In this document: positions 2 through 6,595 of the stretch, piece by piece
Numbering within the stretch: the stretch's first letter is position 1
Layout of the letters: each line of letters starts with the position of its first letter
Assembly (NCBI GenBank): GCA_011391185.1
Contig: JAABRB010000203.1
Location: forward strand, 1-6,595
Direction of reading: 5' to 3'
Source: Betaproteobacteria bacterium
Lineage (GTDB): Bacteria > Pseudomonadota > Gammaproteobacteria > Burkholderiales > SG8-39
Length of the DNA: 6,595 nt
Notes under the pieces: model-generated
Seen by the model: the letters and a program-made list of their open reading frames with translations, nothing else
Databases searched by the model: none
What the model was told of the DNA's origin: nothing
Position numbers and translations under genes: made by a program

Positions 2-478
2 CCGGAGGGCTACTCGCCGATCCTCATCGGTGGCCGGAGTGCGCTCGTCGACTTGGCCGGCGTCGTCGCGGCGACCGTGGTGCCCGCCGCGCCCGGATCG
101 CGCTTTCGCATACTTGCCGACGAGCGGCCCGCGGGACGCCGCGCCCCCACCGCGCTCGCGCATGCCGCGGCGGGCGTCGCGTTCTGCTACATGACGCAGC
201 TCGGCCGCTATATCGAGTATCGAAAGTACAAGGTGCGGGGGCTACGTGTCGTGCAGACCAACCGCTTCAGCATGGCGGGCCGCACCGAGGATTTCTCGCT
301 GCGCGGTGGCGCGGCACCGTTTGACACGCACGTCTTCCTGAATGCCGACGAACCGGACGAGGTGATGCAGACGCTGCTCGAAGTTGCCGAGAACACGTGC
401 TACCTGCATGCGGCGCTGCGCAGCGGATTGCCCGGACGCGTCGAAATCGAGTTGAACGGCGCGCCGCTCAGCGTGTAA
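2..478 (+). CDS. OsmC-family protein, 3' part only
   Basis: This open frame enters from the left edge already in progress and ends at the TAA at 476-478, giving about 158 visible residues. An ATG-initiated start is not in view; the line reads as coding from codon 1 (PEGYSPILIGG), so the true start lies outside the window. OsmC/Ohr-type proteins reduce organic hydroperoxides or related thiol-reactive compounds in the cytoplasm, using two cysteines. Both are visible in typical surroundings: Cys at visible codon 62 (FCYMTQLGRY, start of the central helix) and Cys at codon 133 (ENTCYLHAAL). The segment between them has the expected beta-rich character, and the C-terminus (VEIELNGAPLSV) resembles the closing strand of the fold. 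The gene converges on the IclR gene and is separated from it by a REP-like doublet, so it probably belongs to a different transcription unit. The family call is firm, but the physiological substrate cannot be deduced. Confidence 0.8.
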   Translation, partial: PEGYSPILIGGRSALVDLAGVVAATVVPAAPGSRFRILADERPAGRRAPTALAHAAAGVAFCYMTQLGRYIEYRKYKVRGLRVVQTNRFSMAGRTEDFSLRGGAAPFDTHVFLNADEPDEVMQTLLEVAENTCYLHAALRSGLPGRVEIELNGAPLSV

Positions 479-692: not shown

Positions 693-1532
693 TCAGAGTT
701 CGCTCTTGCTGCTGAGAATGCTCTCGAGCCCTTCGATCTCGCCGCGCAGCAGGCCGACGAGCTCGGCCTGGCGGGCCGGCGACATCCGACTCTCGATCGC
801 CCCGATGCTGAGTGCGGCAAACGGATCACCGAAGCGCGTGCGGATCGACAGGGCGAGCGAGAGGGCACCGTGCGTGAGGTGCACGTCGTTCAGCGCATAG
901 CCCATGCTCTGAGCCCGCTTGACCAGTGAGGCGAGGCGCGGCACGGTCAGTCCGGAATAGGCGGCGAGCCGCGTGGCGTTCGCTTGCAGAATCTCGTCGA
1001 TTGCGTCGTCCGCGAGCGGCATGAGCAGGGCGAGTCCGCCGGCCCCGACGCCGAGCGGGCGGCGCGTGCCGACGTCGAGCAACAGCGCCTTGATGGGAAA
1101 CGAGCCTTCGCGGCGGTCGATGCACACCGTGTCGTAGCCGCTGCGCACCGTCAGGAACACCGTGTCACCCGATTGTTCGGCAAGGCGTGCCAGCGGGCGG
1201 GCGCAAAGCTCCCGCAGGCTGAACTGGGGCGCGGCCGCGAGCCCCAGCTCGAAAGCGAGGTGACCCAGGTGATAGCGGCGCGACGCCGGATCCTGGGCCG
1301 CGACGCCCTCCTCGCACAGGCATTTCAGAATGCGATGCACCGTCGGCCGCTCGAGCCGCACGTGGCGCGCGACCTCCACCAGCCGCAGTCCGCCATGGCC
1401 GCGCGAGGCGATCACGCGCAGCACGGCCAGCGCGCGCTGAATGGCCTGCGTCCCGGAGTGGCGCACCGCCCCCTCGCGCTCCGGGTCGAGGCCCCGTGTG
1501 CTGCGAATCCCGCGCGTCGCTCGTTGTTCCAT
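693..1532 (-). CDS. IclR-family transcriptional regulator
   Basis: The 279-residue product has the standard IclR layout. A winged helix-turn-helix spans roughly residues 28-90, beginning TQAIQRALAVLRVI, with the recognition helix near 61-72 (ERPTVHRILKCL). The C-terminal GAF-like effector domain covers about residues 108-270 and includes GDTVFLTVRSG, a VCIDR strand and the small-residue segment GVGAGGLALL at 161-170. IclR proteins of this type are cytoplasmic dimers or tetramers that sense small carboxylic or aromatic acids and act as repressors or activators of catabolic operons. The gene is transcribed divergently from the ubiX operon, so that operon is its likely target, probably along with its own promoter. 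The ATG at 1532 gives a 27-residue charged N-terminal tail before the DNA-binding domain. A GTG at 1464-1466 (residue 23), preceded by a purine-rich GAGGGGG, would give a more compact protein and is a credible alternative start. No obvious Shine-Dalgarno sequence precedes the ATG. The family call is firm; the effector is unknown. Confidence 0.93.
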   Translation of the reverse strand: MEQRATRGIRSTRGLDPEREGAVRHSGTQAIQRALAVLRVIASRGHGGLRLVEVARHVRLERPTVHRILKCLCEEGVAAQDPASRRYHLGHLAFELGLAAAPQFSLRELCARPLARLAEQSGDTVFLTVRSGYDTVCIDRREGSFPIKALLLDVGTRRPLGVGAGGLALLMPLADDAIDEILQANATRLAAYSGLTVPRLASLVKRAQSMGYALNDVHLTHGALSLALSIRTRFGDPFAALSIGAIESRMSPARQAELVGLLRGEIEGLESILSSKSEL

Positions 1533-1541
1533 ATTCTGGAA
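1527..1541. promoter_or_regulatory. Candidate operator: TTCCA-N5-TGGAA palindrome at the regulator start
   Basis: TTCCA (1527-1531) and TGGAA (1537-1541) form a perfect 5-bp inverted repeat with a 5-nt spacer, overlapping the ATG of the IclR gene. Further GAAT/ATTC symmetry follows immediately (GAAT 1539-1542, ATTC 1546-1549). A 15-bp palindrome with TGGAA/TTCCA-like arms resembles the operator type known for IclR itself, although here the arms point the other way. If bound, it would block transcription or initiation of the regulator gene, meaning autoregulation. The palindrome is directly visible; its use as an operator is inference. Confidence 0.4.
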
Positions 1542-1617: not shown

Positions 1618-1646
1618 CTGCCGGCCGCATTTCACATCCTGGACTC

Positions 1647-2270
1647 ATGAAACGTCTCATCGTCGGTATCACGGGTGCGACCGGTGCCATCTTCGGCATC
1701 CGCATGCTCGAGGCGCTGAAGGCTGCGTCGGTCGAGTCCCACCTGATCATCAGCAAGTGGGGGCTGCAGACGCTCGAGCACGAGACGTCCTATACCGGGC
1801 AGCAGGTCCGCGACCTCGCGGCGGTGTGCCACGAGCCGGGCAACATGGGCGCGGCCGTTTCGTCGGGCTCGTTCCTCACCGAGGGCATGGTGATCGCGCC
1901 CTGCTCGGTGCGCACCCTGGCAGCTATTGCGCACGGCACCGGCGAGCACCTGGTGCACCGCGCCGCCGATGTGATCCTCAAGGAGCGCCGCAAGCTCGTG
2001 CTGCTGGTGCGCGAGACGCCGCTCTCGGAAGTGCACATCGACAACATGCTGAAGCTCGCGCGGATGGGCGTGACGATCATGCCGCCCATGCCCGCTTTCT
2101 ATAATCATCCGCAGACGCTCGACGAAATGGTCGACCATATCGTCGCGCGTCTGCTCGACCAGTTCGGCATCGAGGCCGATTTCGCGAAGCGCTGGAGCGG
2201 TGAGATGCACCGCGAATCCGCGGTGCGCCGCAAATCGAACGCCAAGTCCAACACCCCCAAGGAGGATTGA
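1647..2270 (+). CDS. ubiX: UbiX-family flavin prenyltransferase
   Basis: This enzyme joins a dimethylallyl group to reduced FMN to make prenylated FMN, the cofactor required by UbiD decarboxylases. The 207-residue product begins MKRLIVGITGATGA with the nucleotide-binding loop at residues 7-14. SSGSF (72-76) and APCSVRTLAAIAHG (84-97) are the family's FMN and phosphate contact segments. Residues matching known active-site positions of characterised UbiX proteins are present: Glu46, Arg105, Lys116, Arg122-Glu123 (VRETP), Tyr152 (PAFYNHP) and Arg168. The ATG at 1647 places the motif as in other members; upstream in-frame codons are not protein-like. No strong Shine-Dalgarno sequence precedes it. 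The tail after about residue 176 (KSNAKSNTPKED at the end) is a charged extension beyond the usual core, and its last codons carry the ribosome-binding site of the next gene. The gene immediately precedes a UbiD decarboxylase, so it probably serves that enzyme rather than ubiquinone synthesis. Confidence 0.93.
   Translation: MKRLIVGITGATGAIFGIRMLEALKAASVESHLIISKWGLQTLEHETSYTGQQVRDLAAVCHEPGNMGAAVSSGSFLTEGMVIAPCSVRTLAAIAHGTGEHLVHRAADVILKERRKLVLLVRETPLSEVHIDNMLKLARMGVTIMPPMPAFYNHPQTLDEMVDHIVARLLDQFGIEADFAKRWSGEMHRESAVRRKSNAKSNTPKED
2259..2265 (+). promoter_or_regulatory. Strong ribosome-binding site that sets the decarboxylase start
   Basis: AAGGAGG lies inside the last codons of ubiX, 7 nt before the GTG at 2273. 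An overlapping TTG at 2267 is too close to it and the ATG at 2285 is too far (19 nt). This favours the GTG as the start of the UbiD-family gene. Confidence 0.75.
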
Positions 2271-2272
2271 TC

Positions 2273-3850
2273 GTGAGCAGCGTCATGAAACCCGTTTCCG
2301 CCAGCCGCGCGAAGGACATCACCAGCCTGCGCGCCGCCATCGAATGGCTGCGCGCCGAGGCACTGTTGATCGAGACCGACAAGGAAGTCAATCCCGATCT
2401 CGAAATCACCGGTCTGCAGAAACATTTCGATGGCAGCCTGCCGATGCTCTTCAACAAGGTGAAAGGCAAGCCGCACGCGCGCGCGATCACCAACCTCTTC
2501 GCCGACATGCGGATCGTCGACCGCTACTTTGGTTGGGACGGTCCCACCGATCGCACCCGCAAGCTCGCGCGCGCACTGACTCGCCCATTGAAGCCGGTCG
2601 AGATCGCGCAGAAGGACGCGCCCTGCCAGGAGCACGTCATCACCGACGACCTGGATGTCAATAAGTGGATCACGGCGATCCGTCACACCGAGCTCGAGCC
2701 CGAGCTCACCATCGGGTCGGCCATCCGCTGCGTCACCGGCGACTATTTCGACGGCGGCTCGGACCTCGGCTACAACCGCATGAATTTCCGCTGGGGCAAC
2801 GTCGGAACATTCCAGATCTCCCCCGGCTCGCACATGTGGCAAGTCATCACCAAGCACTACAAGGACGAGGACCCGATTCCGATCACCATGTGCTTCGGGG
2901 TCCCGCCGGCCTGCACGCTGCTTGCGGGCGCCGGATTCGACTACGTGATCCTGCCCAAGGGCTGCGACGAGATCGGCATCGCCGGGGCGGTGCAGGGCTC
3001 GCCGATTCGGCTCGTCAAGGCACGCACGGTCGATGCCTACGCACTCGCCGACTCGGAATACGTGCTCGAAGGTCACATCCATCCGCGCGACAAGCGTTAC
3101 GAGACCGCCGAGTCCGAGAAGGCGGGCGTGCAGGGCAAGACGTTCTTCCATCCGGAGTGGGCCGGCTACATGGGCAAGGCCTACAAGGCGCCGACCTTCC
3201 ACGTGTCGGCCATCACGATGCGCAATCCCGAGTCGAAGCCGGTGATCTTTCCGCTCGGCGTGCATACGTTCGACGACAGCAACATCGACACCACGGTGCG
3301 CGAGGCGGCGATCTTCGAGCTTTGCGAGCGGCTGCAGCCCGGAATCGTCCAGGACGTGCACATCCCGTACAGCATGACCGACTGGGGCGGCTGCATCATC
3401 CAGGTGAAGAAGCGCAACCAGATCGAGGAAGGATGGCAGCGCAATTTCCTGTCGGCGATCCTTTCGTGCTCGCAGGGCATGCGCCTCGCCATCGCGGTGA
3501 GCCCGGACGTCGACATCTACTCGATGGACGACATCATGTGGTGCCTTACCACTAGGGTGAATCCGCGGACCGACATCCTCAACCCGATCCCGGGTGGACG
3601 CGGCCAGACGTTCATGCCGGCCGAGCGCATGACGGCGGGCGACAAGGCCTGGACCGCGTCGAACACGGAGTTCGAAGGCGGAATGGGCATCGATGCGACC
3701 GTGCCGTTTGGCTACGAGCAGGATTTCCATCGCCCGGTGTATCCGGTCGACAAGGTCAAGCCGGAGGACTTCTTCTCGAAGGACGACGTCGCCAAGGCGC
3801 GTGCGCGCATGGAAGGCTGGGTGCTTTCGCTCGCGAAGACGGGACGCTAG
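2273..3850 (+). CDS. UbiD-family prFMN-dependent decarboxylase, candidate phthaloyl-CoA decarboxylase
   Basis: UbiD enzymes use prenylated FMN and a divalent metal to decarboxylate, or carboxylate, aromatic or unsaturated acids. With the GTG start the product has 525 residues (roughly 59 kDa), slightly longer than many UbiD proteins and close to the roughly 60-kDa subunit reported for phthaloyl-CoA decarboxylase. Visible family features are Arg169 in LGYNRMNFRWGN (the active-site Arg of the N..YR motif), His187 (PGSHMWQ) and Glu233 (GCDEIGIAGAVQG) as probable metal and cofactor ligands. Glu262 and Glu266 (SEYVLEGHI) lie in the stretch where the family carries its catalytic glutamates. The position normally held by the metal-binding Asn, five residues before the Arg, is Asp164. 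ubiX precedes it by 2 nt, and two class III CoA-transferase genes follow, suggesting the substrate is an aryl-CoA thioester such as phthaloyl-CoA (product benzoyl-CoA). The family is certain. The substrate comes from context, and isophthaloyl-CoA or another aromatic acid is possible. Homologues in anaerobic phthalate degraders have, as I recall, been called phtDa or pcd. Confidence 0.9.
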   Translation: MSSVMKPVSASRAKDITSLRAAIEWLRAEALLIETDKEVNPDLEITGLQKHFDGSLPMLFNKVKGKPHARAITNLFADMRIVDRYFGWDGPTDRTRKLARALTRPLKPVEIAQKDAPCQEHVITDDLDVNKWITAIRHTELEPELTIGSAIRCVTGDYFDGGSDLGYNRMNFRWGNVGTFQISPGSHMWQVITKHYKDEDPIPITMCFGVPPACTLLAGAGFDYVILPKGCDEIGIAGAVQGSPIRLVKARTVDAYALADSEYVLEGHIHPRDKRYETAESEKAGVQGKTFFHPEWAGYMGKAYKAPTFHVSAITMRNPESKPVIFPLGVHTFDDSNIDTTVREAAIFELCERLQPGIVQDVHIPYSMTDWGGCIIQVKKRNQIEEGWQRNFLSAILSCSQGMRLAIAVSPDVDIYSMDDIMWCLTTRVNPRTDILNPIPGGRGQTFMPAERMTAGDKAWTASNTEFEGGMGIDATVPFGYEQDFHRPVYPVDKVKPEDFFSKDDVAKARARMEGWVLSLAKTGR

Positions 3851-3854
3851 CGAG

Positions 3855-3878
3855 TTTCGCGCGGCGGGAATCGCGAAA
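3855..3878 (+). promoter_or_regulatory. Hairpin spanning the start of the first CoA-transferase gene
   Basis: TTTCGCG (3855-3861) and CGCGAAA (3872-3878) form a perfect 7-bp stem with a 10-nt loop. The loop displays a purine-rich GGCGGGA that could serve as the ribosome-binding site, while the A of the ATG (3878) closes the stem. It almost fills the 27-nt gap between the decarboxylase and CoA-transferase genes. It may tune translation of the transferase or mark an RNA-processing site; that is inference. No T-run follows, so termination is unlikely. Confidence 0.45.
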
Positions 3879-5011
3879 TGCTGTCCGGCTGCCGGGTCCT
3901 CGATGCTACCGACCGGTTGGGCTGGTTGGCCGGACGGTTGCTCGCCGATCTCGGCGCGGCGGTCACGAAGGTCGAAGCGCCGGGCGCGGACACCGCTGCC
4001 GCCGAGTGGCGCGCGCTGAACGTCAATAAGGCGCTGGTCGAACTCGACCTTGATCTCGGCGCGGACCGCGAGCGCTTTGATGCGATTGCGGCGCAGAGCG
4101 ACATCCTGCTTGTGACGCCCGTTCCCGGGACCGCTGCGGCGAAGTGTTGCGACTACGCGCGACTCGCCGCGCTGAATCCCGGGCTCGTCGTCGTGGCGAT
4201 CACGCCGTTCGGTCTTGCCGGCCCCAAGGCCGAGTGGCGGGCGAGCGACATCGAGCTCATGGCCGCGAGCGGGGCAATGTCGCTCGCAGGCGAGGCCGGT
4301 GCCACGCCGCTCCGCGTGAGCGCACCGCAATCCTACGCGTGGACCGGTGCGCAGGCCGCGATCGGCGCGCTCGTCGCGCTTCACCACCGCGCGACGAGCG
4401 GCCGCGGGCAGCTCGTCGACGTGTCGGCGCAGGCCGCCGTGATCACCGCGATCTCGCACGCCCCCGCATTCGTCTCGATCACGGGCACGACGCCGACGCG
4501 TGCCGGCGCCTACATGACCGGGCGCTCGGTCACCGGCGCGCGGTTCCGCGTCTTCTGGCCGTGCCGCGACGGCTACATCAACTTCATTCTCTACGGTGGC
4601 GTCGCCGGTCGGCGCACCAACGAGCAGCTCGTGGCGTGGATGCGCGATCGCGGCGCGGAACTCGGTGCGCTCGCGGCGATCGACTGGCGGTCCTGGGACC
4701 CGACCAGCGTGACCCAGGACGAGGTCGACGCGATCGAGGCGCCGATCGAGCGGTTCCTCTCGGGTGTGAGCAAGCGGGAGTTCCTGGAGGAGGGGCACCG
4801 CCGCGAAATGCTCGGCTATCCGGTCGCCAACGTCGCCGACACCGCGGCCGATCCGCAGCTTGCGGCCCGCGGATTCTGGCAAGACGTTCCCAGGCCCGAT
4901 GGTGGCACCGAACGTCATTGCGGAAGCTTTGCGATCGTGGACGGCGTGCGCGCGGCGCTCCGGCCCGGCGGCACGGCCGCGACCCCCGGGCGGAAGGCGA
5001 AGCGGGCATGA
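3878..5011 (+). CDS. Class III (CaiB/BaiF) CoA-transferase, subunit 1, without the catalytic Asp
   Basis: The 377-residue protein belongs to family III CoA-transferases, which move CoA between carboxylic acids through an Asp-bound intermediate. Family features include LAGRLLADLGAAVTKVEAPG near residues 17-36, LNPGLVVVAITPFGLAGP near 99-116, and the helix ending GALVALHH followed by GRGQLVDVSAQ. When the helix is aligned with formyl-CoA transferase, the position of the catalytic Asp is Tyr153 (QSYAWTGAQA), so this chain probably has no transferase chemistry of its own. It probably pairs with the next gene product, which keeps the Asp. Two-gene transferases of this family are known for benzylsuccinate and for succinyl-CoA:phthalate. 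The start at 3878 lies 27 nt after the decarboxylase stop, with only a weak GGCGGGA upstream. The gene ends in an ATGA overlap with its partner, which favours coupled, balanced synthesis. In the phthalate model it is one subunit of the enzyme forming phthaloyl-CoA. Confidence 0.88.
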   Translation: MLSGCRVLDATDRLGWLAGRLLADLGAAVTKVEAPGADTAAAEWRALNVNKALVELDLDLGADRERFDAIAAQSDILLVTPVPGTAAAKCCDYARLAALNPGLVVVAITPFGLAGPKAEWRASDIELMAASGAMSLAGEAGATPLRVSAPQSYAWTGAQAAIGALVALHHRATSGRGQLVDVSAQAAVITAISHAPAFVSITGTTPTRAGAYMTGRSVTGARFRVFWPCRDGYINFILYGGVAGRRTNEQLVAWMRDRGAELGALAAIDWRSWDPTSVTQDEVDAIEAPIERFLSGVSKREFLEEGHRREMLGYPVANVADTAADPQLAARGFWQDVPRPDGGTERHCGSFAIVDGVRAALRPGGTAATPGRKAKRA

Positions 5012-6222
5012 CCACGCAGGCGCTCGCGGATGTCAAGGTCGTCGAGTTCGGCAGCTATGCCGCCGGTCCGCACATCGGCAAGGTGCTCGCGAACTACGGC
5101 GCAACCGTCGTACACGTCGAGTCCAAGGCGCGGCCGGACGGTTTCCGGCTGCAATACCCGCCCTTCCAGGACGGCAAACCGGGCATTAACGCGAGCGGCT
5201 GCTTTGCGCACTTCAACGATTCCAAGCTCGGCATCACGGTGGACCTCAAGAGCGGACACGGCCGCGCGGCGGCACGCCGGCTCGTCGACTGGGGCGATGT
5301 CGTGATCGAGAACATGCGCCCCGGCGTGATGGCGCGCGTCGGACTCGATCACGAGAAGCTCGCGGAAACCAATCCCGGGCTCGTGATGCTGTCGACCTGC
5401 AACATGGGCCAGACCGGCCCCCGTGCCGACACTCCGGGTTTCGGCTCGCAACTCACCGCGCTTGCCGGCATGTGCAATCTCACGGGGTTTCCGGATGGCC
5501 CGCCGATGCTGCTCTACGGGCCCTACATTGACTTCATTGCTTCTTCGCTGGGCGCGTCCGCCGTGCTCGCGGCGCTCGAGCGGCGACGCAGGACCGGACA
5601 GGGTGCCTACATCGACGTGTCGCAATACGAATGCGGGCTGATGTTCCTCGCCGGTCCGCTCCTCGAGTATCACCGCTCGGGGAAGATGGCCGAGCGCGCG
5701 GGCAACGCAGATCCCGGTGCGGCACCGCATGGCGCGTATCCGGCGCGCGACGGCGCGTGGATTGCGCTCTCGTGCTGGTCGGATGCGGAATTCGCGTTGC
5801 TCTTCGAAGTGATGGGGCGGGCCGAGCTTGCGGCCGACGCGCGTTTCGCCACGCTCGCACTGCGCCGGACGAATGCTGCTGCGCTCGATGCGTTGATCGA
5901 AGAATGGTCGCGCGCGCAGAACGCCCGCGCCACCGCGGAGAAACTCCAGGCAGCCGGAGTGCGCGCGCACGAAGTGAGTACGATCGCGGATCTCTTCGAC
6001 GACCCGCAGCTTGCCGAGCGCCGGCTGTGGCGCAACCGGCCGCACGCCGTGTTCGGCGAGCAGGCGTGCTGCTTCCCGGCATTCGATCTGTCCGAGACAC
6101 CCGGGGAGATCACCGGCGCGGCCCCCCTTCTCGGCGAGCACACGGAGAAGGTCTTTCGCGAGCTCCTGGGCATGAGCGCGGACGAGTACGCGGCGCACGC
6201 CGCTGCCGGCGCGTTCAACTGA
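5008..6222 (+). CDS. Class III (CaiB/BaiF) CoA-transferase, catalytic subunit 2
   Basis: The 404-residue product is a full-length family III CoA-transferase. It opens with LADVKVVEFGSYAAGP (residues 6-21) and contains GATVVHVESK (31-40), NDSKLGITVDLKS (70-82), GDVVIENMRPGVM (96-108), a QTGP turn (135-138) and GAYIDVSQYE after the central helix. The nucleophilic Asp of the family aligns with Asp175 in YGPYIDFIASSLG, at the same distance from the helix-ending AAL as in formyl-CoA transferase. Its start codon overlaps the previous stop (ATGA, 5008-5011), and GGAAGG at 4992-4997 is a suitable ribosome-binding site. The open frame continues upstream without a stop, but that part overlaps subunit 1 and is not protein-like. 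With subunit 1 it probably forms a heteromer that transfers CoA from a donor such as succinyl-CoA to an aromatic dicarboxylate, giving the thioester that the UbiD enzyme decarboxylates. The catalytic class is firm; donor and acceptor are inferred from context. Confidence 0.9.
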   Translation: MTTQALADVKVVEFGSYAAGPHIGKVLANYGATVVHVESKARPDGFRLQYPPFQDGKPGINASGCFAHFNDSKLGITVDLKSGHGRAAARRLVDWGDVVIENMRPGVMARVGLDHEKLAETNPGLVMLSTCNMGQTGPRADTPGFGSQLTALAGMCNLTGFPDGPPMLLYGPYIDFIASSLGASAVLAALERRRRTGQGAYIDVSQYECGLMFLAGPLLEYHRSGKMAERAGNADPGAAPHGAYPARDGAWIALSCWSDAEFALLFEVMGRAELAADARFATLALRRTNAAALDALIEEWSRAQNARATAEKLQAAGVRAHEVSTIADLFDDPQLAERRLWRNRPHAVFGEQACCFPAFDLSETPGEITGAAPLLGEHTEKVFRELLGMSADEYAAHAAAGAFN

Positions 6223-6229
6223 CCCGATC

Positions 6230-6595
6230 ATGCCGGACGACACGCTGGCCGCGCGCATCGAGGCATTTCTCGATGCCCACCACGTGATGACGCTCGCCAC
6301 CCGCGTCGACGACGCTCCGCATGCGGCGTCGCTCATGTACGCACGCGACGGCTTCATGCTCTACTGGACTTCCGACCCGGCCACGCGCCACTCGCGTGCC
6401 CTCGAGTCGGATGATCGGGTCGCTGCGACGATCGCGCCGGACTACACCGAGTTTCGCGTGATTCGCGGCCTGCAGATTGCCGGCCGCGCGGCACAGCTGA
6501 CCGTCGACGCGGAGGTGGATCGCGCGCGATCGCTGATGGAGAAGCGCTTCGCTTTCCTGGCGGAGCTCGCGCGGGGGCCCGAGGAACTGCGCGCG
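6230..6595 (+). CDS. YhbP-like pyridoxamine-phosphate-oxidase-fold protein, 5' part
   Basis: An open frame begins at the ATG at 6230, 7 nt after the preceding stop, and runs off the window after 122 codons. The product starts MPDDTLAARIEAFLDAHHVMTLAT and continues with PHAASLMYA (31-39), LYWTSDPATRHSRALE (44-59), RVAATIAPD and VIRGLQIAGRA (79-89). These match the split-barrel FMN-binding fold of the pyridoxamine 5'-phosphate oxidase superfamily and in particular YhbP-like proteins (TRHA, IRGxQxxG and RRF/KRF positions). Members are about 145-155 residues long, so perhaps 25-35 residues are missing. Their biochemical role is mostly unknown; flavin or other cofactor binding is expected. No clear ribosome-binding site is present, so translation probably depends on coupling with the CoA-transferase gene. 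Its place in an operon that makes and uses a flavin cofactor may be meaningful, for example in flavin reduction or delivery, but this is speculation. Confidence 0.75.
   Translation, partial: MPDDTLAARIEAFLDAHHVMTLATRVDDAPHAASLMYARDGFMLYWTSDPATRHSRALESDDRVAATIAPDYTEFRVIRGLQIAGRAAQLTVDAEVDRARSLMEKRFAFLAELARGPEELRA

Follow-up and report, generated by a model that had tools for sequence, protein, structure and literature searches.

A betaproteobacterial UbiX-UbiD-CoA-transferase operon as a probable module for the conversion of o-phthalate to benzoyl-CoA

Ortho-phthalate is a breakdown product of plasticisers. Excerpts of two published papers describe its activation by a succinyl-coenzyme A (CoA):phthalate CoA-transferase, followed by a phthaloyl-CoA decarboxylase (PCD) (PMC13040137; PMC9516798). 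In Aromatoleum aromaticum EbN1, the o-phthalate cluster is carried on plasmid 2 (NC_006824.1) and comprises an IclR-type regulator, UbiX, PCD and the transferase subunits SptA and SptB. Here, we analyzed a stretch of 6,595 nucleotides from a Betaproteobacteria bacterium (assembly GCA_011391185.1, contig JAABRB010000203.1; hereafter the window), which shares these five genes with EbN1. Judged from its sequence, the window probably contains the core module that converts o-phthalate via phthaloyl-CoA to benzoyl-CoA, and we put the probability of this reading at roughly 0.93. It is clearly a new example of a described pathway and not a new kind of system.

Identity between the window and EbN1 proteins is 80.6% for PCD, 62% for IclR, 69-70% for UbiX, 62% for SptA and 64% for SptB. 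The EbN1 cluster differs in that it has two UbiX-PCD copies, between which lie an ABC transporter, a third UbiD, a porin and a DMT transporter. Its IclR gene is co-directional with UbiX, whereas the two are divergent in the window; its TRAP genes are located after an insertion sequence (IS) element; and the 31.5 kb that were read there contain nothing matching PPOX at E <= 1e-10. An IS5-type transposase gene was observed after SptB on this plasmid (L080 13000-31545). By description, the isophthalate cluster of Syntrophorhabdus aromaticivorans likewise combines activation to a CoA ester with a UbiD-type decarboxylase (excerpt of PMC13040137), but activation is there attributed to an ATP-dependent ligase and not to a CoA-transferase (excerpt of PMC9516798). 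According to excerpts of a further paper, uncultured estuarine bins contain UbiD homologues that are 74-85% identical to known PCDs, some of them with UbiX, CoA-transferase and TRAP genes nearby; these are mostly gammaproteobacterial and flanked by transposases (PMC8269228), whereas no transposases were seen in the window. Excerpts of PMC9765128 and PMC10803450 contained no information about such a module.

In a phmmer comparison with PDB, the UbiD-family protein of the window scored 988 and 987 bits against the solved PCDs 8pmk and 8oz5, while the next family, protocatechuate decarboxylase, reached 156 bits. The alignment with 8pmk covers residues 17-525 and is gap-free as printed, and substitutions relative to the PCD entries 8pmk, 8oz5 and 8p02 are scattered along the length of the protein. 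PF20695, PF01977 and PF20696 were all found above cut-off, and the protein is thus full-length with three domains. Compared with four other UbiD proteins, it retains an Arg column (YNRM, aligned with IHRM/FRQM) and two Glu columns (DEIGIAG, EYVLEG), which we take to be the catalytic residues. Matches to this UbiD were present in 383 of 72,556 plasmid records. EbN1 plasmid 2 stood alone in the 80-90% identity band (80.6%), the remaining 382 were below 60% with nothing in between, and the UbiD proteins of plasmids other than EbN1 among the matches listed were at most 32% identical.

A genome scan with the UbiD protein found 255 relatives, the best 80 of which were retained, corresponding to 79 loci with a best-segment identity of 73-95%. 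In a quick maximum-likelihood tree of 88 rows, the 84 PCD-like rows were split from the four other UbiD proteins by a branch marked 100*, with the proteins of EbN1, A. evansii and A. toluclasticum on the side of the window. The window UbiD grouped with L001 and L002 (97*), and L003, L020 and L030 joined at 95*. The PDB entries were compared by score only and, like the isophthalyl-CoA decarboxylase, stand outside this tree. Because all four outgroup rows carry a long-branch flag, which makes the starred values less trustworthy, we regard the placement among PCDs as support and not as proof. The protein P0096 was ruled out as the 8pmk sequence (936 bits, not identical). The contig of L032 is titled as a Klebsiella pneumoniae metagenome-assembled genome (MAG); its PCD pairs with a betaproteobacterial row (98*), and the contig is probably mis-binned.

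Two adjacent class III CoA-transferase subunits adjoin the PCD in the window. The top PDB match of SptA was 9fn0_A, a benzylsuccinate CoA-transferase subunit (122 bits), and SptB scored 213 bits against 4ed9 and 200 bits against chain B of 9fn0. The column of the nucleophile holds Asp in 4ed9, Glu in 9fn0_B and 10uh, Glu208 in SptB and Ala186 in SptA. Among the relatives, Glu occupies this column in all 34 SptB rows, and an acid is absent from 45 of the 47 SptA rows, the other two being gapped there. Glu208 is presumably the acid nucleophile, and since SptB carries Glu in this column and SptA no acid, SptB is probably the catalytic subunit; SptA would then be non-catalytic. Benzylsuccinate CoA-transferase is also a two-subunit class III enzyme and shares the chain B Glu with SptB, but it is distant in sequence, acts on another substrate and has Glu in chain A where SptA has Ala.

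The genes for UbiX, UbiD, SptA and SptB lie on one strand, each with a reading frame intact from start to stop (Table 1). As the gaps between them are at most 27 bases and the two transferase genes overlap by 4 bases, a single transcript is likely. The top Pfam E-values per operon gene range from 3.3e-34 (UbiD) to 3.4e-105 (second CoA-transferase) and therefore rule out chance. In a tblastn comparison of 80 loci, namely the 79 from the scan plus EbN1, the order PCD-SptA-SptB was found in 37, including 23 (EbN1 among them) with UbiX in front; another six show SptB-PCD-SptA. These counts vary with flank length, as several contigs end early. An earlier note on this DNA had described ubiX-ubiD and two CoA-transferase genes on one strand with a divergent IclR gene, an arrangement confirmed by the open reading frames and Pfam; the partial OsmC-like and PPOX-like genes at the two ends were absent from that note. 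Its reading of this set as an o-phthalate to phthaloyl-CoA to benzoyl-CoA module is supported by the PCD scores, the tree and the EbN1 gene order, and its expectation that the UbiD would group with characterised phthalate PCDs, and not with decarboxylases of other substrates, agrees with the 100* branch and the 988 bits.

Table 1 Genes and candidate regulatory sites in the window.
Feature	Position	Strand	Basis or remark
OsmC-like domain protein, 3' end only	2-478	+	Open reading frame and Pfam; partial flanking gene
IclR-family regulator, divergent from operon	693..1532	-	PF01614 62.6 bits, PF09339 42.7 bits
Perfect inverted repeat TTCCA-TATTC-TGGAA, candidate operator	1527..1541		Overlaps IclR start codon
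Degenerate second copy TTTCA-CATCC-TGGAC	1630..1644		Directly 5' of UbiX; 2 mismatches; weak in window
UbiX-type flavin prenyltransferase	1647..2270	+	PF02441 152 bits; PRK06029 259.8 (cut-off 188); TIGR00421 252.1 (cut-off 108.9)
UbiD-family protein, predicted PCD	2273..3850; start 2273 (open reading frame list) or 2285 (codon-usage gene caller)	+	Bits to 8pmk/8oz5, EbN1 identity, PCD clade
SptA-like class III CoA-transferase subunit, CoA_transf_3	3878..5011	+	PF02515 182.9 bits
SptB-like class III CoA-transferase subunit, CoA_transf_3	5008..6222	+	PF02515 352.6 bits
PPOX-like (PNPOx_N) gene, truncated at window end	6230..6595	+	PF01243 46.7 bits

In the proposed mechanism, SptA/SptB would transfer CoA from succinyl-CoA onto o-phthalate, yielding phthaloyl-CoA, which is labile. 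The UbiD enzyme, carrying prenylated flavin mononucleotide (prFMN) that the adjacent UbiX would supply, as its family suggests, would immediately decarboxylate phthaloyl-CoA to benzoyl-CoA. As a PCD, it would be expected to depend on K+ and Fe2+ as well as on prFMN. Benzoyl-CoA could then pass to benzoyl-CoA reductase without oxygen or, probably, to the Box route with oxygen. The IclR regulator, a candidate phthalate regulator, probably binds TTCCA-N5-TGGAA between the divergent genes, so that the operon would be switched with phthalate.

The same chemistry might act on another aromatic dicarboxylate, such as isophthalate, terephthalate or a natural ortho-dicarboxylate. Few members of the PCD clade have presumably been characterised, and by record titles the clade spans six phyla (Pseudomonadota, Acidobacteriota, Gemmatimonadota, Chloroflexota, Actinomycetota and Thermodesulfobacteriota), which leaves room for other substrates. 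We nevertheless consider this improbable in view of the high PCD identity and the gene order in common with EbN1. An excerpt of PMC13040137 further gives the succinyl-CoA:phthalate CoA-transferases of PA01 and EbN1 as inactive with isophthalate or terephthalate, and isophthalate activation is assigned to an ATP-dependent ligase (excerpts of PMC9516798 and PMC13040137), whereas the operon in the window has a two-subunit CoA-transferase. Among the seven window proteins scanned with Pfam there was no AMP-binding match and hence no isophthalate:CoA ligase. With the transferase present and a ligase absent from the window, the isophthalate/terephthalate variant was set aside. The earlier note had offered the locus as a possible new instance of the phthalate module or a variant for isophthalate or another dicarboxylate; the former stands, while the CoA-transferase in place of a ligase speaks against the latter.

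Still less probable, and only barely worth entertaining, is a non-oxidative hydroxyarylic acid decarboxylase of the Vdc/gallate type that happens to adjoin unrelated CoA-transferases. The top NCBIfam models, VdcB for UbiX (276 bits, cut-off 290) and VdcC for UbiD (168.8 bits), point in this direction, as does the name 'gallate decarboxylase subunit C' that some close relatives bear in one source (jgi). The VdcC score is, however, far below its cut-off of 650, and CoA-transferases stand in order beside PCD in 43 of the 80 loci (37 + 6). On the VdcC score and the plasmid UbiD identities given above (at most 32%, EbN1 apart), this candidate was rejected in favor of o-phthalate conversion.

For benzoyl-CoA degradation, we searched 50 genomes, chosen from the 79 loci mostly for CoA-transferase neighbours and representing several phyla. 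BoxB was above cut-off in 40 of them, and PF01869 (BcrA/D and kin) in 38, although the latter is a broad family that also matches in 10 of 14 control genomes. With PF01869 counted above 100 bits, 30 genomes had both, 10 BoxB only, seven PF01869 only and three neither. The BoxB background is rough, as it represents a single order, that of G001 (32 of 150 genomes above cut-off, G001 included), whereas the 50 genomes span several phyla. In the five nearest relatives (G001, G002, G003, G017 and G025, corresponding to L001, L002, L003, L020 and L030), BoxB, BcrA and Oah were each found above curated cut-offs in all five, and NarG was above cut-off in four.

The IclR protein of the window is 84% identical to the L001 copy, in addition to its 62% identity with that of EbN1, and an IclR gene lies within 3.5 kb of the PCD module in 12 of the 80 loci. 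We counted sites with the operator pattern TTCCA-N5-TGGAA, allowing one mismatch, in the stretch of some 300 bases that precedes each called IclR, UbiX or PCD gene. There were 22 sites in 19 of 81 sequences, whereas the rate elsewhere, based on 38 sites, would predict 1.2; the count is partly circular as the pattern was picked by eye on nine loci; 15 of the 22 sites fall in 12 other loci. Twelve of the 14 loci of the IclR cluster carry a site. In an alignment of nine intergenic regions, part of the sequences show, by eye, blocks resembling the degenerate copy in front of UbiX. In EbN1 (L080), one site at 13056 precedes IclR (13091) and another at 14138 precedes UbiX (14318); the former was tallied as elsewhere because that IclR fell outside the IclR cluster.

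Besides the speed of the tree search, the long outgroup branches and the circularity of the operator count, several observations weigh against the o-phthalate reading. The window contains neither a benzoyl-CoA degradation gene nor a transporter gene within its 6.6 kb. The three genomes without BoxB over cut-off or a PF01869 match above 100 bits are G010, G020 and G021 (3/50), of which G010 nevertheless has two PF06050 matches; in G045 (L062), tallied as BoxB-only, PF01869 passes its cut-off only with neighbours (32.1 versus 31.5 bits); and NarG was below cut-off in one of the five nearest relatives, G001. The window PCD lies outside the Aromatoleum subclade of the tree. Since SptA and SptB are only 62-64% identical to their EbN1 counterparts versus 81% for PCD, confidence in the acyl acceptor of the transferase is lower than in the decarboxylase. 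No operator-pattern site was found in L007 and L027, two of the 14 IclR-cluster loci, and with two mismatches allowed the window holds three sites versus 0.89 expected, a number reached in 15 of 200 shuffles.

The PPOX-like gene begins 7 bases past the end of SptB and is possibly the last gene of the operon. In 12 of the 80 loci, a relative of this gene stands close to the PCD module, and the gene product may have a role in flavin or prFMN supply. A second cluster, of PNPOx_N type by two scanned members, was observed in L042, L046, L047, L051 and L075. In L001, TAXI-TRAP-type transporter genes (NMT1_3 and DctM) directly follow PPOX; in L002 such genes are not adjacent to the module. Another gene family, cluster 5, occurs in the fetched stretch of 19 of the 80 loci (L016, L023, L032, L044, L048, L053-L058, L061, L063, L064, L069, L071 and L076-L078). 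Its one scanned representative is an AMP-binding ligase, neither SptA nor SptB was found, by tree label, in any of the 19, and these PCD-like loci are possibly a ligase-type variant. A MarR-type gene is also present in some of them.

Genes resembling nadC (one member scanned) were observed in the PCD stretches of L019, L026, L029, L033 and L072. As phthalate resembles quinolinate, a phthalate-tolerant second copy is conceivable. Isopentenyl-diphosphate isomerase-like genes, an assignment based on one scanned member, the annotated idi of EbN1, lie near PCD in L027, L029, L031, L033, L053, L057, L063 and L080 and could be a source of the prenyl donor for UbiX. In the window itself, two short GC-rich palindromes (CCCCTCC...GGAGGGG type) were spotted by eye at 492-512 and 584-604, the second followed by an A-run; they are possibly terminators or repeat elements.

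A distinct group of loci links PCD to box genes. In L037, a molybdopterin oxidoreductase with NuoF/NuoE-like genes, a set that we take to be formate-dehydrogenase-like, is followed by BoxD, a cupin, PCD, SptA, SptB, Oah and Dch (292.0 bits versus a cut-off of 292.5), and then by BoxB and BoxC on the opposite strand. Judged by cluster membership, the L037 arrangement recurs in L018 from the NuoF-like gene onward, with families and order unchanged, and L040 and L062 have the segment BoxD-cupin-PCD-SptA-SptB in common with L037. In L046 and L047, BoxB lies just upstream of the PNPOx_N-type gene, SptB and PCD. Alphaproteobacterial clusters place PCD amid box genes without a clear benzoyl-CoA reductase. 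PF06050 was found in none of the 10 BoxB-only genomes (those of L018, L037, L040 and L062 included), an absence that is weak as most are draft MAGs, and PF01314 in one (G014). Against the lack of a reductase in L037, its Oah and Dch genes suggest that one was once, or is still, present. Sanz et al. 2020 reportedly coupled the EbN1 phthalate genes to box under air. An excerpt of PMC13040137 credits the same authors with the use of EbN1 genes in Cupriavidus necator to make polyhydroxyalkanoate out of phthalate. Moreover, the title of a published paper already refers to denitrifiers with an aerobic hybrid phthalate pathway. The principle of box coupling is therefore not new, and we dropped it as a wholly new idea.

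Overall, these observations can be joined in a tentative picture, which as a whole we hold to be doubtful. The PCD module would not be anaerobic as such but an oxygen-indifferent feeder of benzoyl-CoA, able to supply both benzoyl-CoA reductase and Box in the nearest relatives. In some Alphaproteobacteria, it would form part of box clusters with formate-dehydrogenase-like genes and act in an aerobic hybrid phthalate pathway without a clear reductase. The IclR protein and TTCCA-N5-TGGAA would form the switch, and the PPOX flavoprotein would aid prFMN supply.

If our assignment holds, the known range of the pathway for phthalate, and hence for plasticisers, extends to an uncultured lineage near Burkholderiales. 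The locus also contributes a testable operator motif, TTCCA-N5-TGGAA, and, in the PPOX-like gene, a candidate for an extra conserved gene of the phthalate module. In addition, the wider comparison suggests that the PCD module may also serve bacteria that degrade benzoyl-CoA with oxygen.

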